From contig NZ_JACDNP010000001.1 in NCBI RefSeq assembly GCF_013839425.1, positions 248,001 through 312,000 of the forward strand: a stretch of 64,000 bases of DNA, written 5' to 3'. The position numbers were made by a program, and so were the translations under genes. Under the pieces are notes generated by a model. It did no database searches and was not told where the DNA came from. It saw only the letters and a program-made list of their open reading frames with translations. The DNA is from Halorhabdus salina (GTDB lineage: Archaea > Halobacteriota > Halobacteria > Halobacteriales > Haloarculaceae). Every line of letters starts with the position of its first letter. The stretch's first letter is position 1. This document shows positions 12,920-22,644 of this stretch, piece after piece.

Positions 12920-13352
12920 GCACGACCACCTCCGTACTGGAAACTCCCGGACCCGAGACGACTTTGACCCGGTCGGGCTGGCTAGTAGCCGAGACGTTGT
13001 ATCGCAACTGCTCGCCCGGCAGCCACAGGTCCGTTCCGGCGTCGCCGTCGACGGACCGCTCGGTGAAACTCGTCTGGTACTCGTTGTCGACGATCAGGTC
13101 CGTCCCCTCGACGGTCAACTCGGACGCACCCGTGTTGTTGACCGTGACGATTAGACTGTTGTTGCCGTCGTCGTACGTCGCGTTGTGGATCGCGATGGCC
13201 GTGTTTTGCTGGGTCAGCAAGTCATCCTCAGCTGCGTTTCGAGCGTCCGTCACCCGCTCGACGGTATTGAACGCTGCAGTGTGGAACATCCCGAAGGCAA
13301 TGAGCGTCGCAGCGAAGATGATCGCCACGGAGGCGCTAACGCTGAAGCCCAT
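12912..13352 (-). CDS. arlF: Archaellum stator component ArlF (FlaF)
   Basis: A 146-residue protein with an N-terminal membrane helix (residues 6-25) and a beta-sandwich domain with LIVTVNNTGASELTVEG; ArlF binds the S-layer and anchors the motor. The start at ATG 13350-13352 is chosen over an upstream ATG because the helix begins immediately after it and a strong Shine-Dalgarno-like GGAGGTGGAG lies a few bases before it. That ribosome-binding site lies inside the 3' end of arlD/E, which overlaps by 17 nt. Confidence 0.92.
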   Translation of the reverse strand: MGFSVSASVAIIFAATLIAFGMFHTAAFNTVERVTDARNAAEDDLLTQQNTAIAIHNATYDDGNNSLIVTVNNTGASELTVEGTDLIVDNEYQTSFTERSVDGDAGTDLWLPGEQLRYNVSATSQPDRVKVVSGPGVSSTEVVVRG

Positions 13353-15120
13353 TTGCTCCACCTCCAGCCATAGTTGGCATCTGTTCGAGGGCGACTGATT
13401 CGGCACCGCCGCCGTTCAACTGACTCACGTAGCGGAGGCTCTTGGTGTGGTGATCGATAGTCAGCGTCGACGGTTCGCTATCCGCCTCAAAGCCCTGAAG
13501 GTACGCCTGGAGCTGATCGGCGACATCCTCGTCGATCCAGTCGATGCGCTCGTAGTAGTGGATCGCCTCGGCCGTGGCTCGAATCCCGACCTCCTCGACG
13601 AGGAACTCCAGCCACTCGACGACGATCAGGTCAGCGAGGAAGCCGTCGGGGAGCTCCGTGAGGTACGGCTTCCCGTCCTCGCCGCTGGCCGACTCCGTGG
13701 CCGATTGGTCGGCCGTTTCGTCCGCCTGACCGCTCGCCTGGGAACCTGCGTCCGCCTTCGGTTCGTCGACAGCCGAGTGAGGATCCGTCTCGGATTCGGC
13801 GTCTGACAGCGTCGCGTCCATCTCGGACGCCTCGTCGGTGACAGCTGTGCCGTCCGCAGTGTCAGAATCTGACTCTGCAGCGTCGGCCATTGGCTCCGCA
13901 GTCTCGGCAGTTGGTTCAGGCGCTTCCTCGGCGGTGTTCGGCTCCGGCTGGGAGTCCGCTGTTGGTTCTTCCTCCTCGTCGATCACCGTATCGAAGAGGT
14001 CATCGTCGGCAAGCGCGTCGTCAGCCGATTCGTCTTCGAGTTCGTCGAACGCATCCGCCGGCTCTTCGTCGTCGGCCGATTCGTCCGCGAGTTCCTCAAA
14101 GGCGTCGCCTGGCTCGTCGTCCTCGGCTTCGGTCGCCTCCGCCTCAGCGGCCATCTCGTCCGGGTCCCCTCGGTCCTCTCCCTCGGCCCATTCGGCGTCG
14201 CCCGCTTCGTACTCGTCTTTCAGTTCTGCAAATGACTTCCCGCCTTCCTCGCCACCATCGCTGTCGTCGCCGCCCGAGTCCGTGTCAAAGTCATCCTCCA
14301 TCTCAAAGTCGTCACCGTCGTCGAAATCTTCGTCGAACTCGTCGTCAAACGCAACGTCGTCACCACCATCGTCGAGGTCGTCGTCCCCGAGAACTTCGCC
14401 GACATCTGTGTCAGCCTCGAGTTCATCGTCGTCCTCGACGAGATCCTCGTCGAAGAACCCCTCTGCATCGGCGTTCGCGATGTCCTCTTCGAGATCCTCG
14501 TCAGCCTGGCCATCGTCGCCGTCGTCGAACAGACCGAACGATTCGTCGCCCGGGCCGCCCAGTCCGCCGGCATCAATGTCGTCGGCGAAGGGATTGACAC
14601 CGCGAGTCACCATCTCGTAAATATCGAGCAATTTTCGGACATTCTCCTCGACGTCATCGACTGTCTCCGAGATCTGCTCGTTCTCGTTGCGGACAGTGTT
14701 GACCGTCGAGGAAAGACTACCGACTTCCGTTTCGAGTTCGTCAAGCCGATGTTCCAGTTCGTCCGTATCGGACCCCCCGTCCATGTCGCCAAACTCGTCG
14801 TCTTCGAACTCTCCAAACTCGTCACCGCCATCGTCGAGACCGCCCAGATCTCCGAAATCGTCGCCACCGCTTTCCTCCGGCATCAGTCCCTCGCCACCGC
14901 CCGAATCGTCCGGTTGTACCTCTTCGTCGTCGGAGAGAATCGAATCGAAGACAGACCTGATGCTCATGCCGACAAACCCCACCGAGAGCAGTGCGACAAC
15001 CAAGGGCTCTGGCGACACTGCACCGGTCGGCCCCAGGAACCACCCGCCGACATCCAACACGGGCTGACCGGCCACCGTCGTTACGGCCGATCCGAGCCAC
15101 AGGGACGAGAGACCACTCAT
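13336..15120 (-). CDS. arlD: Archaellum accessory protein ArlD/E type with ArlC-like coiled coil and long acidic linker
   Basis: A 594-residue protein. Residues 1-62 include a hydrophobic stretch (VVALLSVGFVGMSI near 43-56). A very acidic Gly/Asp segment follows, then a coiled coil D-E-L-E-H-R-L-D-E-L-E-T-E-V ending in KLLDIYEMVTRGVNPF (about 110-175), the ArlC-type element. Next is a roughly 300-residue Asp/Glu/Ser/Ala linker, and the C-terminal ArlD/E domain (YLTELPDGFLADLIVVEWLE to the mid-550s). ArlC/D/E proteins form the cytosolic ring that receives the CheY/CheF signal. ATG 15118-15120 is preferred to the adjoining upstream GTG. It is the first gene of the arl operon and no separate arlCE gene is present. 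Confidence 0.88.
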   Translation of the reverse strand: MSGLSSLWLGSAVTTVAGQPVLDVGGWFLGPTGAVSPEPLVVALLSVGFVGMSIRSVFDSILSDDEEVQPDDSGGGEGLMPEESGGDDFGDLGGLDDGGDEFGEFEDDEFGDMDGGSDTDELEHRLDELETEVGSLSSTVNTVRNENEQISETVDDVEENVRKLLDIYEMVTRGVNPFADDIDAGGLGGPGDESFGLFDDGDDGQADEDLEEDIANADAEGFFDEDLVEDDDELEADTDVGEVLGDDDLDDGGDDVAFDDEFDEDFDDGDDFEMEDDFDTDSGGDDSDGGEEGGKSFAELKDEYEAGDAEWAEGEDRGDPDEMAAEAEATEAEDDEPGDAFEELADESADDEEPADAFDELEDESADDALADDDLFDTVIDEEEEPTADSQPEPNTAEEAPEPTAETAEPMADAAESDSDTADGTAVTDEASEMDATLSDAESETDPHSAVDEPKADAGSQASGQADETADQSATESASGEDGKPYLTELPDGFLADLIVVEWLEFLVEEVGIRATAEAIHYYERIDWIDEDVADQLQAYLQGFEADSEPSTLTIDHHTKSLRYVSQLNGGGAESVALEQMPTMAGGGANGLQR

Positions 15121-15146
15121 CACAACAAAAATAGCCGCTCAAACCC

Positions 15147-15179
15147 TTCAATGTACCGTTTAGAGTATCATATTTGATA
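15147..15179 (-). promoter_or_regulatory. arl operon promoter region with TATC-N6-GATA palindrome
   Basis: A perfect inverted repeat TATC-ATATTT-GATA lies at 15166-15179. On the minus strand it reads TATC-AAATAT-GATA, followed after about 12-14 nt by a weak box-A-like ACATTGAA (15147-15154). That would start transcription close to the arlD/E start codon (leaderless). The same palindrome lies at matching positions before several other motility genes in this window. Confidence 0.55.
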
Positions 15180-17081: not shown

Positions 17082-17441
17082 TCAGGAGGGGACAACGTCT
17101 TCGATCGCTTCCATCACGCTCGGTTTCTGGAAGGGTTTGGTGATATACCCGTCAGCACCTGCTTTGACGGCCTCTTTCATTTTCTCTTCCTGACCGACAC
17201 TCGTGCACATGATGACGTTGGCACTAGGGTCTGTGGACTTGATCTCGTCTGTCGCCTCAATGCCATCCCTGATCGGCATGACGATATCCATCATCACGAG
17301 GTCCGGGTTGTTCTCTTTGTAGGCCTCGACGGCTTCGACGCCGTTCTCGACCTCATCGATGATCTGATGATCTTCCTCTAAGATCTCACGTAGCAGGTTC
17401 CGCATGAACTCTGAGTCGTCCGCGATGAGTACTTCAGGCAT
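17082..17441 (-). CDS. cheY: Chemotaxis response regulator CheY
   Basis: A 119-residue single receiver domain. The acid pair is in V-L-I-A-D-D-S-E, the phosphoacceptor Asp is in L-V-M-M-D-I-V-M-P near residue 53, Thr/Ser in M-C-T-S-V-G and Lys in I-T-K-P-F near 104. Phosphorylated by CheA, CheY signals to the archaellum through CheF. ATG 17439-17441 is chosen because the receiver begins directly after it; an in-frame upstream ATG would add an unlikely extension overlapping the promoter. Confidence 0.95.
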   Translation of the reverse strand: MPEVLIADDSEFMRNLLREILEEDHQIIDEVENGVEAVEAYKENNPDLVMMDIVMPIRDGIEATDEIKSTDPSANVIMCTSVGQEEKMKEAVKAGADGYITKPFQKPSVMEAIEDVVPS

Positions 17442-17472: not shown

Positions 17473-17507
17473 AAATAAATGCTTCCGTACGATTATCGCG
17501 ATTGATA
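17473..17507 (-). promoter_or_regulatory. cheY promoter with TATC-N6-GATA palindrome
   Basis: On the minus strand TATC-AATCGC-GATA (17494-17507, perfect arms) is followed 14 nt later by box A TTTATTT (17473-17479). Transcription would start near 17450, about 10 nt before the cheY ATG. Spacing and arms match those before the archaellin and small-membrane-protein genes. Confidence 0.65.
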
Positions 17508-17566: not shown

Positions 17567-18220
17567 TTACAGTTCGAAGCCGTCTTCATCGACGCGTTCG
17601 AGCAGTTCGCCGATCGAATCATTCGGTCCGAGGTCGTGCGATTTTACGAGGTGAGACAGTCGCTCTGTCGGATAGCTGATCGGGACGTTCGATTCGGTGA
17701 GCAAAATGCCGAGGATTTCTTCGACGGGTGTCTCGCTGTCGATATGCTGGGCGTACCAGAGAATTAGGCTCTCGAAGATCGTCACGACGTCGTTTGACAT
17801 CATCCGGCGCTGGGAAACCCGCCCATCGAACGTCGCCGTCACGTGAAAGCCATATCGGGAGCCGACCGATTCGAAAGAATCGCGCAGCCAGTCTTCGACG
17901 TCCGCTTCCGTGAGTTCGTCGACGCCGGTCTGGCCGGAACTCGTTGGCACCGATTCTGCTTCATCGGCGTCAGTTTGTGTCGACGGGGCCGGCACTGACG
18001 CTTCGGTTTCGTCAGGAGCGTCCGCGACCGGGTCAGGTGACGGCGACGCTGCGGAGCCAGCGGTGCCGATCCCGTCGACGTCACCGATCGGATCGTTGGG
18101 GGAGACGACGTAGCGGCCGTCCTCTATCTCTGCGACGTGCTCGTCATCGGAGATATCCAGCTCTTCCGGTGCGAGCACGCGACCATCGTCCTCGTCGTCA
18201 GGGTCGTCCCCCGTCGCCAT
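17567..18220 (-). CDS. Haloarchaeal protein of the che/arl cluster, unknown function (DUF7500-like)
   Basis: A 217-residue protein. Residues 1-45 (RVLAPEELDISDDEHVAEI and G-R-Y-V-V-S-P) form a short conserved module, followed by an acidic Ser/Thr/Pro-rich linker to about residue 105 and a helical C-terminal domain (E-A-D-V-E-D-W-L-R onward). I think it is the DUF7500 type but am not sure. Its place between archaellin and cheY suggests a motility-associated role by context only. Confidence 0.6.
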   Translation of the reverse strand: MATGDDPDDEDDGRVLAPEELDISDDEHVAEIEDGRYVVSPNDPIGDVDGIGTAGSAASPSPDPVADAPDETEASVPAPSTQTDADEAESVPTSSGQTGVDELTEADVEDWLRDSFESVGSRYGFHVTATFDGRVSQRRMMSNDVVTIFESLILWYAQHIDSETPVEEILGILLTESNVPISYPTERLSHLVKSHDLGPNDSIGELLERVDEDGFEL

Positions 18221-18311: not shown

Positions 18312-18932
18312 TTACAGTTCGACGCTTTCCTTGTTCGAGAGTGAGTCCGGCACGACGAGCGTCACCGTCGTCTGACCACCGGAGCGCGTATCGATCTGCG
18401 CTTCGACGGTTTCTCCAGCTCCAATATTTGCTGGATTGTCAGTTTCGGTCATGTTGAACTGCAGAATCGCTCTATCGACAGGGTCGTTCAACGTATCATC
18501 ACTCGATATCGACGTATCGTCCTCGGGACCATCGCGCAAGGCCGTCCAGTTGAATTGACCGTAGGTATCGTTTTCAGCGTCAGGTAATCTTGCGCTCACC
18601 AGCTGAGCACTCCCGTCGTTGGAAACCCACTGAATAGTCGTGTCGTTGAGGTTCACGTCGTTCGATCCGGGGGCCAGTCGAACAGTCATGTTCACGTAAT
18701 CGATCTCACCACCGTCGGTCACATTTCCTGTCGTCCCGACTTCCACCAGTCGATTGGTGACCTGCTCTGCTGCCTGTTCACCGCTCTCTTCGGCACTACT
18801 CTGAAGGAACCCAGCCGTATTGATCAGCACGCCCGCCGCGATCGCCGCGACCAGCACCATCGCGATGAACACGATGAGTGTGCCGATCCCGACCTGGGCT
18901 CGCTCGTCCGGTTTGTCGTTGCGTTCGAACAT
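18312..18932 (-). CDS. Archaellin (archaellum filament protein)
   Basis: A 206-residue class III-signal-peptide protein. The N-terminus [12 protein letters not shown] is followed by the highly conserved hydrophobic filament helix [18 protein letters not shown]. Processing by the prepilin-type peptidase is expected before Gln-13, here after Ala rather than the usual Gly. The remainder is a beta-rich outer domain with six N-x-S/T sequons (NVT, NMT, NDT twice, NWT, NMT), consistent with N-glycosylation. A Shine-Dalgarno-like GGCGGAG precedes the ATG. It is the only archaellin gene in the window and is separated from the arl operon by cheYCD. Confidence 0.95.
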
Positions 18933-18987: not shown

Positions 18988-19024
18988 TTACTTAAGAATC
19001 ATCCCCCGATTATCGATGATGAAA
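18988..19024 (-). promoter_or_regulatory. Archaellin promoter with TATC-N6-GATA-type element
   Basis: On the minus strand TTTC-ATCATC-GATA (19011-19024; distal arm one mismatch) is followed 14 nt later by box A CTTAAGTAA (18988-18996). The start site would lie near 18966, leaving a leader of about 34 nt with a ribosome-binding site. The layout matches the cheY and arl promoters. Confidence 0.6.
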
Positions 19025-19144: not shown

Positions 19145-19429
19145 TCACGCCTCGTACGTGACGAGACTGTACATCACGAACAGGTACCCAAACGTGGTCA
19201 ATCCGCTGTTGACGAGCAACAGGCCTCGTGTCCCGCTGAATCCAGTCAAGAACGCACTGATCATCGTTGAGGCAGCGCCCGCGACTGCCAGCGCGAACCC
19301 CAGCGACAAGTGAAGCATGGCACGACGCGACGTCTGGACGTACGCCCGCATCGCCATCCCGACCATTGTCAGGCCTGCAACGACGAAGACGAGCGTCAAC
19401 ACCGCATAGAGGAGTTCTATCACTGGCAC
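19145..19429 (-). CDS. Small membrane protein (DUF7521-like), three helices
   Basis: A 94-residue protein made almost wholly of three hydrophobic helices (about 5-27, 39-62 and 68-90), with a short basic loop YVQTSRRA after the first. I recall such proteins as a haloarchaeal family (DUF7521-like) encoded next to winged-helix regulators, as here (gene at 19580-19915). The start is GTG 19427-19429, about 26 nt from box A, implying a leaderless mRNA. It carries the same upstream palindrome as the motility genes, so it may belong to their regulon. Confidence 0.6.
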   Translation of the reverse strand: MPVIELLYAVLTLVFVVAGLTMVGMAMRAYVQTSRRAMLHLSLGFALAVAGAASTMISAFLTGFSGTRGLLLVNSGLTTFGYLFVMYSLVTYEA

Positions 19430-19452: not shown

Positions 19453-19488
19453 CTATTAAATCATTCCTCGAAAATATCTCCTTTGATA
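19453..19488 (-). promoter_or_regulatory. Promoter of the small membrane protein with TATC-N6-GATA palindrome
   Basis: On the minus strand TATC-AAAGGA-GATA (19475-19488, perfect arms) is followed 14 nt later by box A TTTAATAG (19453-19460). A start about 26 nt downstream falls on GTG 19429, so the transcript would be leaderless and the palindrome would lie at about -45 to -60. Confidence 0.65.
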
Positions 19489-19579: not shown

Positions 19580-19915
19580 TCACGATTCGGACAACGTGCG
19601 CCAGGCTTCGTCGAGTTTGTTCGTGACCTCTGACCGTTTCTCGACGTCGATCAGCATCGATTCCTCGAAAGAGACCTCGATAGCGTCGACGTTCCGCCGG
19701 TATACCTTGATACGTCGACGGTCGTCCGAGAGAACGTTGTCGTGAAGTTCGAGCAGATCGTGATCGGTAAGTTCGTCGATCCGTCGGTAGCACGTCGCGA
19801 TCGGAATGTCCAGCTGATCGCTCAGTTCCTGGGCCGATTTCGGTTCCTCGGTCGCGTCCAGAATCTCGGCGCTGTACTTGTTCCCGAGGGTCCGGAGTAA
19901 ATCGACCGATACCAT
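19580..19915 (-). CDS. Winged helix-turn-helix (ArsR-like) transcriptional regulator
   Basis: A 111-residue protein. A wHTH DNA-binding domain occupies about residues 1-85: helix L-L-R-T-L-G-N-K-Y-S-A-E-I-L, then S-A-Q-E-L-S-D-Q-L-D-I-P-I-A-T-C-Y-R-R-I as the recognition HTH, and the wing near D-D-R-R-R-I-K-V-Y-R. The C-terminal helix is acidic and could dimerise. ATG 19913-19915 is chosen because it starts the domain. The gene sits inside the motility island next to the small membrane protein, has a TTATC-T-GATAA element at its own start and is the best local candidate for the regulator of the TATC-N6-GATA sites (inference). Confidence 0.82.
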   Translation of the reverse strand: MVSVDLLRTLGNKYSAEILDATEEPKSAQELSDQLDIPIATCYRRIDELTDHDLLELHDNVLSDDRRRIKVYRRNVDAIEVSFEESMLIDVEKRSEVTNKLDEAWRTLSES

Positions 19916-19917
19916 TG

Positions 19918-19963
19918 TTATCAGATAATGAAGCACAGCGAAGTAAAAGTATCGACGATGAAA
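19918..19963 (-). promoter_or_regulatory. Promoter and possible autoregulatory site of the wHTH gene
   Basis: Box A ACTTTTACTT (minus strand, 19941-19950) lies about 30 nt before the ATG. Between them, immediately before the start codon, is the inverted repeat TTATC-T-GATAA (19918-19928). A TATC-N6-GAAA sequence (19950-19963), as in the archaellin promoter, abuts box A. A site between box A and the start would suit repression. Confidence 0.45.
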
Positions 19964-20078
19964 GCGACGCGAAACCAGCATCCAGTGCTTGATCGAGAGA
20001 CTGGCGTTGACCGAGAAGAGAAGGGTTCAAAAGCCCGTTTTCACGGATAAGAACGAGTTCTCACTCCGTTGAATTGGG

Positions 20079-20804
20079 TCACAGTGGCGACTCGGAGTCG
20101 TTCATCATCGAGAACGCGCTGGCATTGTCGTGGACGTCGATGCCACCCTGGGTTATCTCCATCGGATAGATGTCTGTCTCGATATCCTGCTTGCGCATCT
20201 TCGCAACCCAGACGTACCGGGTGACACCTGACTCTGTCGGCGTCTGGATGAGATAGATATTGCCATCCGTAAGGAAGTTCTCCAGGCCAATATCAGTATC
20301 CGGGAATACCGTGGACTGTTCGTTCGTCAGCAAACTTGTCAGTCCGTTCTGCTTGAGAATATCGGTGAACTTCAGGAGATACGTCCGGTGTTCGCCCTCA
20401 TCGTCGAAGAAGAGCTCGAACATCGCGAGTGAGTCCAACACGAGGCGATCGTACTGGTCTTGCCCGAGGTCTTCGAGAAGGACCTCAAGTGTGTCCGAGA
20501 AATCGTTCTCCTGCAGGAGGCGACGCTTATCGTAGATCTTGATATCGCCTGCTTCGACGTGTTCGGCCCACCGGTCAAAACCGATCGATTCAGCCGCAGC
20601 AGCCAAATCCTCGCGATTTTCCTCGAAGGACAAGAAAATGCCCCGCTCGTCGAACTGCTCGACACCATTGTAGATGAACTGCAAGCCCAGAATGCTCTTG
20701 CCGGCACCGGGCGTCCCGATGACGAGCGTCGTCGAGTTGGTGACGATCCCGCCGTTGAGGATCGAATCGAGCCCTTCAATGCCAGTTTGTGTGAGTTCAA
20801 CCAT
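20079..20804 (-). CDS. KaiC/RAD55-like RecA-superfamily ATPase
   Basis: A 241-residue single KaiC domain. Walker A is V-I-G-T-P-G-A-G-K-S near residues 27-36, a conserved E-E-N-R-E-D follows the second strand and Walker B-like R-L-V-L-D-S-L-A-M is near 117-125. It resembles ArlH and the haloarchaeal taxis-associated RecA-like ATPases. Its place beside cheW and archaellum genes suggests a signalling or motility role, but the target is unknown. ATG 20802-20804 opens the domain (V-E-L-T-Q-T-G-I-E-G-L-D). Confidence 0.8.
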   Translation of the reverse strand: MVELTQTGIEGLDSILNGGIVTNSTTLVIGTPGAGKSILGLQFIYNGVEQFDERGIFLSFEENREDLAAAAESIGFDRWAEHVEAGDIKIYDKRRLLQENDFSDTLEVLLEDLGQDQYDRLVLDSLAMFELFFDDEGEHRTYLLKFTDILKQNGLTSLLTNEQSTVFPDTDIGLENFLTDGNIYLIQTPTESGVTRYVWVAKMRKQDIETDIYPMEITQGGIDVHDNASAFSMMNDSESPL

Positions 20805-20899
20805 CGTAGATAGCCTCGTCGCCGGTTGTTCTGGAATGGTACGCCAGCAAACAAAAAGGCTTCTGCATCGTGCAGGGACTGACAGAGCGGTCCCGGCGG

Positions 20900-21325
20900 T
20901 CACGCCGAGTGAACCGCGACAGGATCGACCCAAATCACAAACCCGTCGTCGCGTTTGACAACTCCGTTGATCGACGCCGCGCCAGCGCCGGCGGGCGATG
21001 GATCGACGTTCTTCTCGTCGACCGCCCGAACCTGATAAACTTCGTCGACAAGCCATCCGGCAGCCTCCTGATCGGCGGTGATTTCCGGATCGAACACGAT
21101 AATACGGCGTTGCTCTCCGGACTCCTGAATGTCGAAGACGACCTTGGGATCGACGATCGAGGTCGTGCGACCACGGAGGTCCATGACCCCTTCGACGTGG
21201 CGTGGCGAATTCGGGACGGCCGTAAGTTCGCCGACGTCGACGATCTCGGTCACGTAGTCGATACTGACACAATAGCGCTCCTCGCCGAGCTTGAACTCCA
21301 GGACTTGGCCGGTCGAATTTGACAT
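20900..21325 (-). CDS. cheW: Chemotaxis coupling protein CheW
   Basis: A 141-residue CheW, an SH3-like double barrel that links transducers to CheA. Recognisable parts are V-L-E-F-K-L-G-E-E-R-Y-C-V-S-I at the N-terminus, the V-M-D-L-R-G-R-T-T-S-I-V-D-P-K loop near residue 47 and the final strand. A strong ribosome-binding site GGGAGGAGATC precedes the ATG on a leader of about 60 nt. It is divergent from cheB with a shared promoter region. Confidence 0.93.
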   Translation of the reverse strand: MSNSTGQVLEFKLGEERYCVSIDYVTEIVDVGELTAVPNSPRHVEGVMDLRGRTTSIVDPKVVFDIQESGEQRRIIVFDPEITADQEAAGWLVDEVYQVRAVDEKNVDPSPAGAGAASINGVVKRDDGFVIWVDPVAVHSA

Positions 21326-21407: not shown

Positions 21408-21464
21408 CCATAAGTGTGTTCATCAGGTTATCAGTGATGATTCCGACGGCGGAGTCTTTATTTG
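21408..21464. promoter_or_regulatory. Divergent cheW/cheB promoter region sharing one TATC-N6-GATT element
   Basis: TATC-AGTGAT-GATT (21429-21442) sits midway between two box A elements: CTTATGG on the minus strand (21408-21414) for cheW and CTTTATTTG on the plus strand (21456-21464) toward cheB. Each core is 14 nt from the element, the spacing seen at other motility promoters. cheB may also have a nearer box A (CTTTAA, 21533-21538). Confidence 0.55.
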
Positions 21465-21570: not shown

Positions 21571-22644
21571 ATGTCAGCACGGTCATCGCCTCGCGCCGTC
21601 GTCGCGGATGACAGCCACTTCATGCGGAGTGTCATCTCAGACATCCTCGAGGAGGGAGGGGTCGAGGTCGTCGCGACCGCGAAGAACGGCCGCGAGGCAG
21701 TCGAAATCGTGTGCGAGCAGGAACCGGACGTCGTGACGATGGACGTCGAGATGCCGGAAATGAACGGCATCGAGGCAGTCGATCAGATCATGGCCGAGTG
21801 TCCGACACCGGTCCTGATGCTCAGTGCCCATACCGACGAGAATGCCGACGTCACTTTCGAAGCCTTAGAGAAAGGGGCCGTGGACTTCTTCACGAAACCC
21901 GGCGGCGAAGTGTCGATGGAAATGTCCCGGCTGAAAGACCAGCTCGTCGACATGGTACGGACGGTCGCGGACGTCGACCCGATGGCCAGAGCCGCCCGAG
22001 ACAGTCACGGGGCATCAATGGGGTCGGCAACGCCGGCCGCTGGTGCCGAGCAGTATGTCGAAAATCCAACGCTCGTTATCGGTTCCTCGACGGGCGGCCC
22101 GACCGTCGTCGAGCGGGTGCTCTCAGAGTTGCCCGTCGCGGCCAACCTGCGAATCCTCGTCGTCCAACACATGCCCGACGAGTTCACGAGTCGGTTCGCT
22201 AACCGTTTGGATGGTCGCAGTGAGTACACGGTTCGTGAGGCCAGCGACGGCGACCGAATCACTGGCGGTGACGCCCTGGTCGCAGCGGGCGGCTATCACA
22301 TGGAGGTCTCGAATTACACCCATGGTCGACTCCGCGTCTCGCTAACCGAAGACGCGCCGGTCAACAGCGTCCGGCCGTCGGTCGACGTGACCATGGCGAG
22401 TGCGGCAGCCGCGATTGACGATCCACTGGTCGGCGTTATCCTCACCGGGATGGGCGAAGACGGTGCTGACGGCATCCGCGCGATCAAAGACACCGGAGGC
22501 ACGACCCTCGTACAGGACAAGGAGTCTTCAGCAGTCTATGGCATGCCAAAGCGGGCCGTCGAAACCGGCCAAGTAGACGACATCTGCTCGCTAGACTCGA
22601 TCTCGACCCGGATCATCGAGGCAGTCAAACCGGAGGTGCACTAA
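21571..22644 (+). CDS. cheB: Chemotaxis methylesterase/response regulator CheB
   Basis: A 357-residue protein with an N-terminal receiver domain (A-V-V-A-D-D-S-H; phosphoacceptor in V-T-M-D-V-E-M-P) and a C-terminal methylesterase. The esterase triad is visible: Ser in V-I-G-S-S-T-G-G-P-T near residue 172, His in V-V-Q-H-M-P-D-E near 198 and Asp in G-M-G-E-D-G-A-D-G near 294. It removes methyl groups from, and deamidates, transducers during adaptation. It is first in cheB-cheA-cheR, 5 nt before cheA. Confidence 0.96.
   Translation: MSARSSPRAVVADDSHFMRSVISDILEEGGVEVVATAKNGREAVEIVCEQEPDVVTMDVEMPEMNGIEAVDQIMAECPTPVLMLSAHTDENADVTFEALEKGAVDFFTKPGGEVSMEMSRLKDQLVDMVRTVADVDPMARAARDSHGASMGSATPAAGAEQYVENPTLVIGSSTGGPTVVERVLSELPVAANLRILVVQHMPDEFTSRFANRLDGRSEYTVREASDGDRITGGDALVAAGGYHMEVSNYTHGRLRVSLTEDAPVNSVRPSVDVTMASAAAAIDDPLVGVILTGMGEDGADGIRAIKDTGGTTLVQDKESSAVYGMPKRAVETGQVDDICSLDSISTRIIEAVKPEVH

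Follow-up and report, generated by a model that had tools for sequence, protein, structure and literature searches.

The winged-helix gene within the archaellum/chemotaxis island of the window (the whole 64,000-nt stretch of DNA analysed, which belongs to a 2.86-Mb haloarchaeal genome) is, by sequence comparison, an ortholog of csmR, and two predicted CsmR sites, O1 and O2, occupy its promoter. Negative autoregulation of csmR is the best explanation of this layout, with a probability of roughly 0.68 on comparative grounds. In the proposed mechanism, CsmR would bind TATCA-N4-TGATA. At archaellum, chemotaxis and several transducer promoters the operator lies upstream, and the TATA box mostly begins 15 nt beyond it. 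At the csmR promoter, O1 adjoins the TATA box and occupies the position of the TFB recognition element, and the second half-site, O2, lies at the ATG and presumed transcription start. CsmR bound there would block TFB/TBP and RNA polymerase, less CsmR would be made, and the outcome would be a negative feedback loop setting CsmR dosage.

The regulator, its motif and its target set are already in print (PMC13286277). New, as far as literature searches go, are the conserved pair of sites in the csmR promoter, the shifted TATA distance and the absence of this layout in the Haloferax clade. The self-control layout is not mentioned in the main text of the CsmR paper, whose figures or supplements could show a csmR ChIP peak (PMC13286277).

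The winged-helix gene of the island is a csmR ortholog

In Haloferax volcanii, CsmR (hvo_1209) is described as a 13-kDa winged-helix protein that is encoded upstream of arlA1/arlA2 and is required for motility (PMC13286277, 2026). The corresponding gene of the window and its upstream neighbours are as follows.

19580..19915, minus strand: csmR ortholog, a 111-aa winged-helix regulator (Pfam HTH_20, conserved start, Haloferax orthologs)
20079..21325, minus strand: cheW (20900-21325) and then a KaiC-family gene (end at 20079, without a fixed start), the upstream neighbours of csmR

The 111-aa protein matched Pfam HTH_20 with an E value of 3.2e-12, above the family cut-off. The full open reading frame covers 19580-19981 on the minus strand. 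The ATG was assigned at 19915 because the ATG of the orthologs sits 27 nt ahead of the LG-N-K-Y codons; the farther-out in-frame ATGs (longer start at 19981) vary among csmR orthologs and are not conserved. Identity to Haloferax CsmR orthologs was 58-59%, the sequence of H. volcanii itself not being among those compared. An ortholog was present in 233 of the 293 genomes of the order at E<=1e-15. In a Haloferax-type genome (G216), the 59%-identical copy lies directly ahead of two archaellin genes, and its protein is 98-100% identical to that of twelve named Haloferax loci; this placement of csmR directly upstream of two archaellins (G216/L065) is the arrangement stated for hvo_1209. The PIAT-YRR segment of the recognition helix was invariant or nearly so among 19 and 34 aligned orthologs. 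With 111 aa, an HTH_20 domain and a location inside the arl/che island, the window protein answers to the description of CsmR as a small winged-helix protein (~13 kDa) encoded at archaellum genes. Searches of its own genome returned seven homolog matches at E<=0.001, csmR counted in, the others being distant. The first-pass annotation had picked out this gene as a candidate motility regulator, and the proposal is borne out by its orthology to the regulator published for H. volcanii (PMC13286277).

The AlphaFold2 monomer model (mean pLDDT 84) consists of four helices, strands and a C-terminal helix. Its best fold match among the matches listed was Phr of P. furiosus (2P4W; Foldseek E 1.4e-4, TMq 0.68; VIA-align Z 12.3, rmsd 6.3, 107 aligned), a match that the CsmR paper reports as well (PMC13286277). 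The other fold matches listed were largely of the ArsR type, with MarR and similar proteins. CsmR was filed under Lrp/AsnC by its paper (PMC13286277); for the window protein, no Lrp/AsnC family was found among the Pfam matches at E<=0.01 and no Lrp/AsnC chain among the 50 fold matches listed. A sequence profile search of solved structures gave 0 matches at E<=0.01.

By Pfam content, the island comprises T2SSF/T2SSE-type arlJ and arlI, arlH, arlCE, cheD, cheC, cheY, archaellin, cheW (CheW match of the product, E 2.3e-27) and the KaiC-family gene (KaiC PF06745, E 8.7e-48), and its divergent part comprises cheB, cheA, cheR, HEAT and two CheF genes. Two further small genes were observed. At 19145-19429 a small DUF7521 membrane-like protein is encoded, with a CsmR-type operator and a leaderless-looking GTG start, and this gene accompanies csmR in many families. 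The DUF7500 protein encoded at 17567-18220 often accompanies cheY/archaellin genes in haloarchaeal islands.

CsmR-type operators precede archaellum and chemotaxis genes

ChIP-seq of H. volcanii CsmR yielded the motif TATCA(N4)TGATA, present in 50 of 65 peaks (PMC13286277). The TATC-N6-GATA arms noted earlier in the window are this same motif, TATCA-N4-TGATA. The suggestion that one protein recognises these arms agrees with the H. volcanii data, and the target set matches as well (PMC13286277). Besides O1 at csmR, five predicted operators were located in the island.

15166..15179, minus strand: predicted operator, exact TATCA-N4-TGATA, upstream of arlCE (13336-15123)
17494..17507, minus strand: predicted operator in front of cheY (17082-17441), followed at the typical spacing by a TATA box
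19011..19024, minus strand: predicted operator with 2 mismatches, in front of the archaellin gene (18312-18932)
19475..19488, minus strand: predicted operator in front of the DUF7521 gene (which starts at 19429), followed at the typical spacing by a TATA box
21429..21442, no strand assigned: predicted operator separating the divergent genes cheW (minus, 20900-21325) and cheB (plus, 21571-22644), flanked by TATA-like boxes on both sides

Most window operators differ from the consensus by one or two bases. All three exact TATC-N6-GATA sites of the window fall within the island (0.16 expected). TATCA-N4-TGATA with up to two mismatches occurs at 12 places of the window against 6.2 expected, the two-mismatch sites alone not being beyond chance. 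In 80 named haloarchaeal loci (1.51 Mb; kept of 199 relatives found, the record of H. volcanii itself not among them, and related loci not being independent samples), 102 exact sites were found against 0 expected and 203 one-mismatch sites against 5.5 expected. The enrichment in these loci is confined to spacer 4, each of the other spacers between 0 and 8 giving one exact site at most. The motif precedes arlCE in 51 loci, archaellins in 42, cheY in 37, DUF7521 in 31, cheW in 27, csmR in 26 and cheB in 22; these labels come from tblastn with the window proteins and are approximate, as are the assigned start codons and hence the distances.

Exact sites numbered 78 in 22 csmR-carrying genomes picked from several families and 12 in 15 csmR-less genomes (p=2.5e-4), whereas the mirrored motif used as control occurred 15 and 18 times, respectively. 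The csmR-less set, chosen regardless of archaellum gene content, consisted of 13 complete genomes without a match and two with weak hits only. The spacer-4 motif tracks the presence of csmR across genomes.

The genome to which the window belongs has TATC-N6-GATA at 36 places. Among 11 such loci outside the island whose gene context was inspected, four precede transducer genes (MCPsignal domain) and seven are without a clear motility gene. In the Haloferax-type genome G216, the motif lies ahead of two transducer genes and one KaiC-family gene. One operator, TATCAGACCTGATA/TATCAGGTCTGATA (L092 5586-5599, own genome C20), precedes a soluble transducer gene and recurs, with exact sites also in G002, G006, G025 and G216; it is perhaps an ancient CsmR target. 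A further exact operator, TATCATCTTTGATA (L091 4659-4672, own genome C12:32658), is intergenic, about 400 nt ahead of the gene for a 1031-aa surface-like protein, and lacks a TATA box at the typical spacing.

The distance from operator to TATA box was compared among the 80 named loci. The box starts 15 nt after the operator in 35/38 cases at cheY, 21/22 at cheB, 28/32 at DUF7521 and 22/33 at cheW. At archaellin promoters the box is at +15 in 23/51, with 21 lacking a box by the pattern used; at arlCE it is at +15 in 17/83, with 61 lacking a box and many assigned arlCE starts being wrong. At the csmR promoter, the TATA box starts at +2/+3 after the operator in 15 of the 29 assigned sites. Some of the other csmR-assigned sites, in Halonotius and relatives, stand roughly 70 nt upstream and may belong to the divergent gene.

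The csmR promoter carries two conserved sites

The elements of the csmR promoter in the window are given below.

19950..19963, minus strand: O1, TTTCATCGTCGATA, predicted CsmR-type operator with 2 mismatches (TATC-N6-GAAA), touching the TATA box and over the BRE position
19943..19950, minus strand: ACTTTTAC, the TATA-like box of csmR, some 28 nt ahead of the ATG
19917..19923, minus strand: O2 half-site TGATAAC, directly ahead of the start codon; right arm of the inverted repeat below
19918..19928, no strand assigned: inverted repeat TTATC-T-GATAA, TTATCTGATAA, two bases ahead of the ATG

The distance between TATA box and ATG suggests a leaderless csmR transcript. The TATC-N6-GAAA described beside box A is indeed present at 19950-19963 and is directly followed by the TATA-like ACTTTTAC. 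Taken alone, this window sequence is at chance level; the csmR sites rise above chance because they are conserved at a fixed place in relatives. O1 in the one-mismatch form TATCA-N4-CGATA, touching the TATA box, was found in 16 of the 80 named loci (Haloarcula 10, Halomicroarcula 2, Halomicrobium and three further archaea), and its CGATA part coincides with the BRE. The two-mismatch form is kept in 7/7 own-genus genomes, source genome included.

O2 is more widespread. GATAA, mostly as TGATAAC or CGATAAC, stands just ahead of the ATG in 45/80 csmR promoters and the inverse in seven more, and in either orientation O2 spans 20 of the 29 genus labels. The resulting 52/80 compares with 26/1713 other ORFs of the same loci (last 11 nt), the inverse being scored as TTATC, CTATCA or ATATCA by a criterion widened after inspection of the alignment. 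Among other ORFs with a TATA-like box at leaderless distance, the same half-site occurs in 3/130. The initial count, over the last 14 nt, was 49/80 against 34/1713, five Haloferax loci scoring there through a differently placed GATAA. In Halonotius, Halohasta and Natronocalculus, O2 is inverted (TATCA) at the identical place, and in Halomicrococcus and Halegenticoccus it is a full operator with one mismatch. In the window, the left arm of O2 is poor at operator spacing.

None of the 22 Haloferax, Halogeometricum, Halobellus and Salinigranum loci searched has O2 (0/22), and this Haloferax clade lacks O1 as well. Outside it, 6/58 loci are without O2 by the criterion used. The 22 loci of the clade (L095-L116) have a conserved box of their own, approximately AACCaaCACATTcACa, about 50 to 35 nt ahead of the csmR ATG, with no obvious TATA box; it may be bound by a different factor to which control of csmR has passed.

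The inverted repeat before the start codon, which the first-pass annotation had treated as an operator, is present at 19918-19928; as a palindrome it did not hold up as the conserved unit, its left arm TTATC occurring in 3/7 and GATAAC in 7/7 own-genus genomes. TTATC-N-GATAA occurs once in the window (0 in 100 shuffles) and three times in the 2.86-Mb genome. Among the aligned csmR promoters, the exact 1-nt-spacer palindrome was found in the source genome, two own-genus relatives and six Halorientalis loci (6/6). The palindrome as such is probably incidental, the conserved unit being the half-site TGATAAC; given the Halorientalis loci, it may have a lineage-specific role. A second genomic TTATCTGATAAC-N-ATG (L002) was rejected as a start-site parallel, as it lies inside a 581-aa ORF that begins elsewhere. 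An origin of O2 as stop codons of the upstream gene was also rejected, as that gene, of the KaiC family, stops some 160 nt away, at 20079.

Site positions point to self-repression

Archaeal activators typically bind upstream, next to BRE/TATA, and repressors over BRE/TATA or the start site (PMC4158304, PMC5512572). TrmBL1, Tgr and H. salinarum TrmB are described as doing both, activating from upstream of BRE/TATA and repressing from downstream (PMC4158304, PMC5512572). From the positions of O1 and O2, self-repression would therefore be predicted; were CsmR to repress everywhere, self-repression would follow too. The position of the sites had earlier been read as suited to autorepression, and comparative genomics lends support to that reading. 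Binding of CsmR at the csmR promoter is judged quite probable from these sequence data, and repression of csmR by CsmR is judged probable.

Activation at the target genes, the other half of the earlier proposal, has fared less evenly. The sites do lie upstream of the TATA box; the sign is unproven, as deletion of csmR in H. volcanii raises expression of the bound targets and yet leaves the cells non-motile (PMC13286277). The authors ascribe this rise in part to derepression and in part to network effects, and propose positive regulation from the site position (PMC13286277).

Against self-control of csmR stands Haloferax, the sole clade with experiments, where O1 and O2 are absent and csmR transcript levels are reported to be stable (PMC13286277). 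In the window, moreover, O1 has two mismatches and would be at chance level by sequence alone, and its CGATA part overlaps the BRE. A rival reading is that both sites are ordinary promoter parts to which CsmR does not bind, CGATA being a BRE variant and TGATAAC an AT-rich start-site element. The weakness of O1 in the window speaks for it, as does the retention of CGATA/CGGTA before the TATA box in genera that have no TATCA left arm, Halosimplex and Salinibaculum among them. It is an unlikely reading: the left arm recurs at exact spacing in 16 loci, GATAA/TTATC ahead of an ATG is rare elsewhere (26/1713 ORFs; 3/130 leaderless-like), and O2 flips orientation at the identical place in some genera.

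If the sites are bound by a protein, another winged-helix regulator with a similar half-site could be the one that occupies O2 (and O1), giving cross-control and not self-control. The genome does encode further distant homologs (the seven matches at E<=0.001, csmR included), and TrmBL1/Tgr of Thermococcales use a similar arm in TATCAC-N5-GTGATA (PMC4158304, PMC5512572). The tracking of csmR by the spacer-4 motif and the nearly invariant PIAT-YRR segment of CsmR make this very unlikely. The least probable reading is that CsmR binds its own promoter and activates it, a positive feedback that would make motility a bistable switch. Overexpression in H. volcanii, which locks cells in the motile rod state (PMC13286277), would fit. 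O1, however, gives TFB/TBP no space ahead of the box and O2 lies over the start, and both placements are repressor positions in the archaea studied (PMC4158304, PMC5512572). Negative autoregulation is the reading we prefer.

A broader scheme, to which we would give slightly less than an even chance, is that CsmR action is position-coded. At motility genes the operator would act from a position 15 nt ahead of the TATA box, and at csmR the same operator would repress from the BRE/start site; self-repression would be widespread in Halobacteria and lost in the Haloferax clade, whose model species would then have a rewired circuit. If so, the rewiring would help to explain the paradoxical-looking deletion data. 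The fixed operator-TATA distance at targets against the shifted one at csmR offers a direct test of position setting the sign. Because Haloferax is without O1 and O2, Haloarcula, for example, with the genetically tractable Haloarcula hispanica, would be suited to a study of the feedback loop.

Comparison with known regulators

TrmBL1, Tgr and VNG1451C are larger proteins with a sugar-binding domain. The window protein scored 16.5 bits against Pfam TrmB, below the cut-off of 25.6, and is not assigned to that family. It resembles TrmBL1/Tgr of Thermococcales and VNG1451C of Halobacterium in being a winged-helix protein with an inverted-repeat operator, and in theirs the side of BRE/TATA on which the operator lies is described as deciding the sign. 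Their operators, TATCAC-N5-GTGATA or TACT-N7-8-GAGTA, differ from the CsmR motif. Autoregulation has been proposed for Tgr (PMC4158304, PMC5512572).

EarA of Methanococcus and Pyrococcus is likewise a winged-helix archaellum regulator, described as acting upstream of the BRE. Unlike CsmR with its spaced palindrome, EarA uses four 6-bp sites (PMC4158304, PMC5512572). By the statement of the CsmR paper, CsmR and EarA have no sequence or structural similarity; EarA is absent from Haloferax, where central control of archaellum genes had been open (PMC13286277, June 2026). The heat-shock regulator Phr, the best fold match noted above, differs in its 19% identity, its greater length and its targets.

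The closest counterpart is CsmR of H. volcanii, with which the window system shares operator arms and spacing, archaellin/arl/che targets and location at archaellin genes (PMC13286277). Transducer genes carry the motif in both the H. volcanii CsmR system and the genome of the window. Unlike hvo_1209 as described, csmR of the window lies between the KaiC-family gene and the DUF7521 gene and not directly before archaellins, and unlike the 22 loci of the Haloferax clade, it has O1 and O2 in its promoter.
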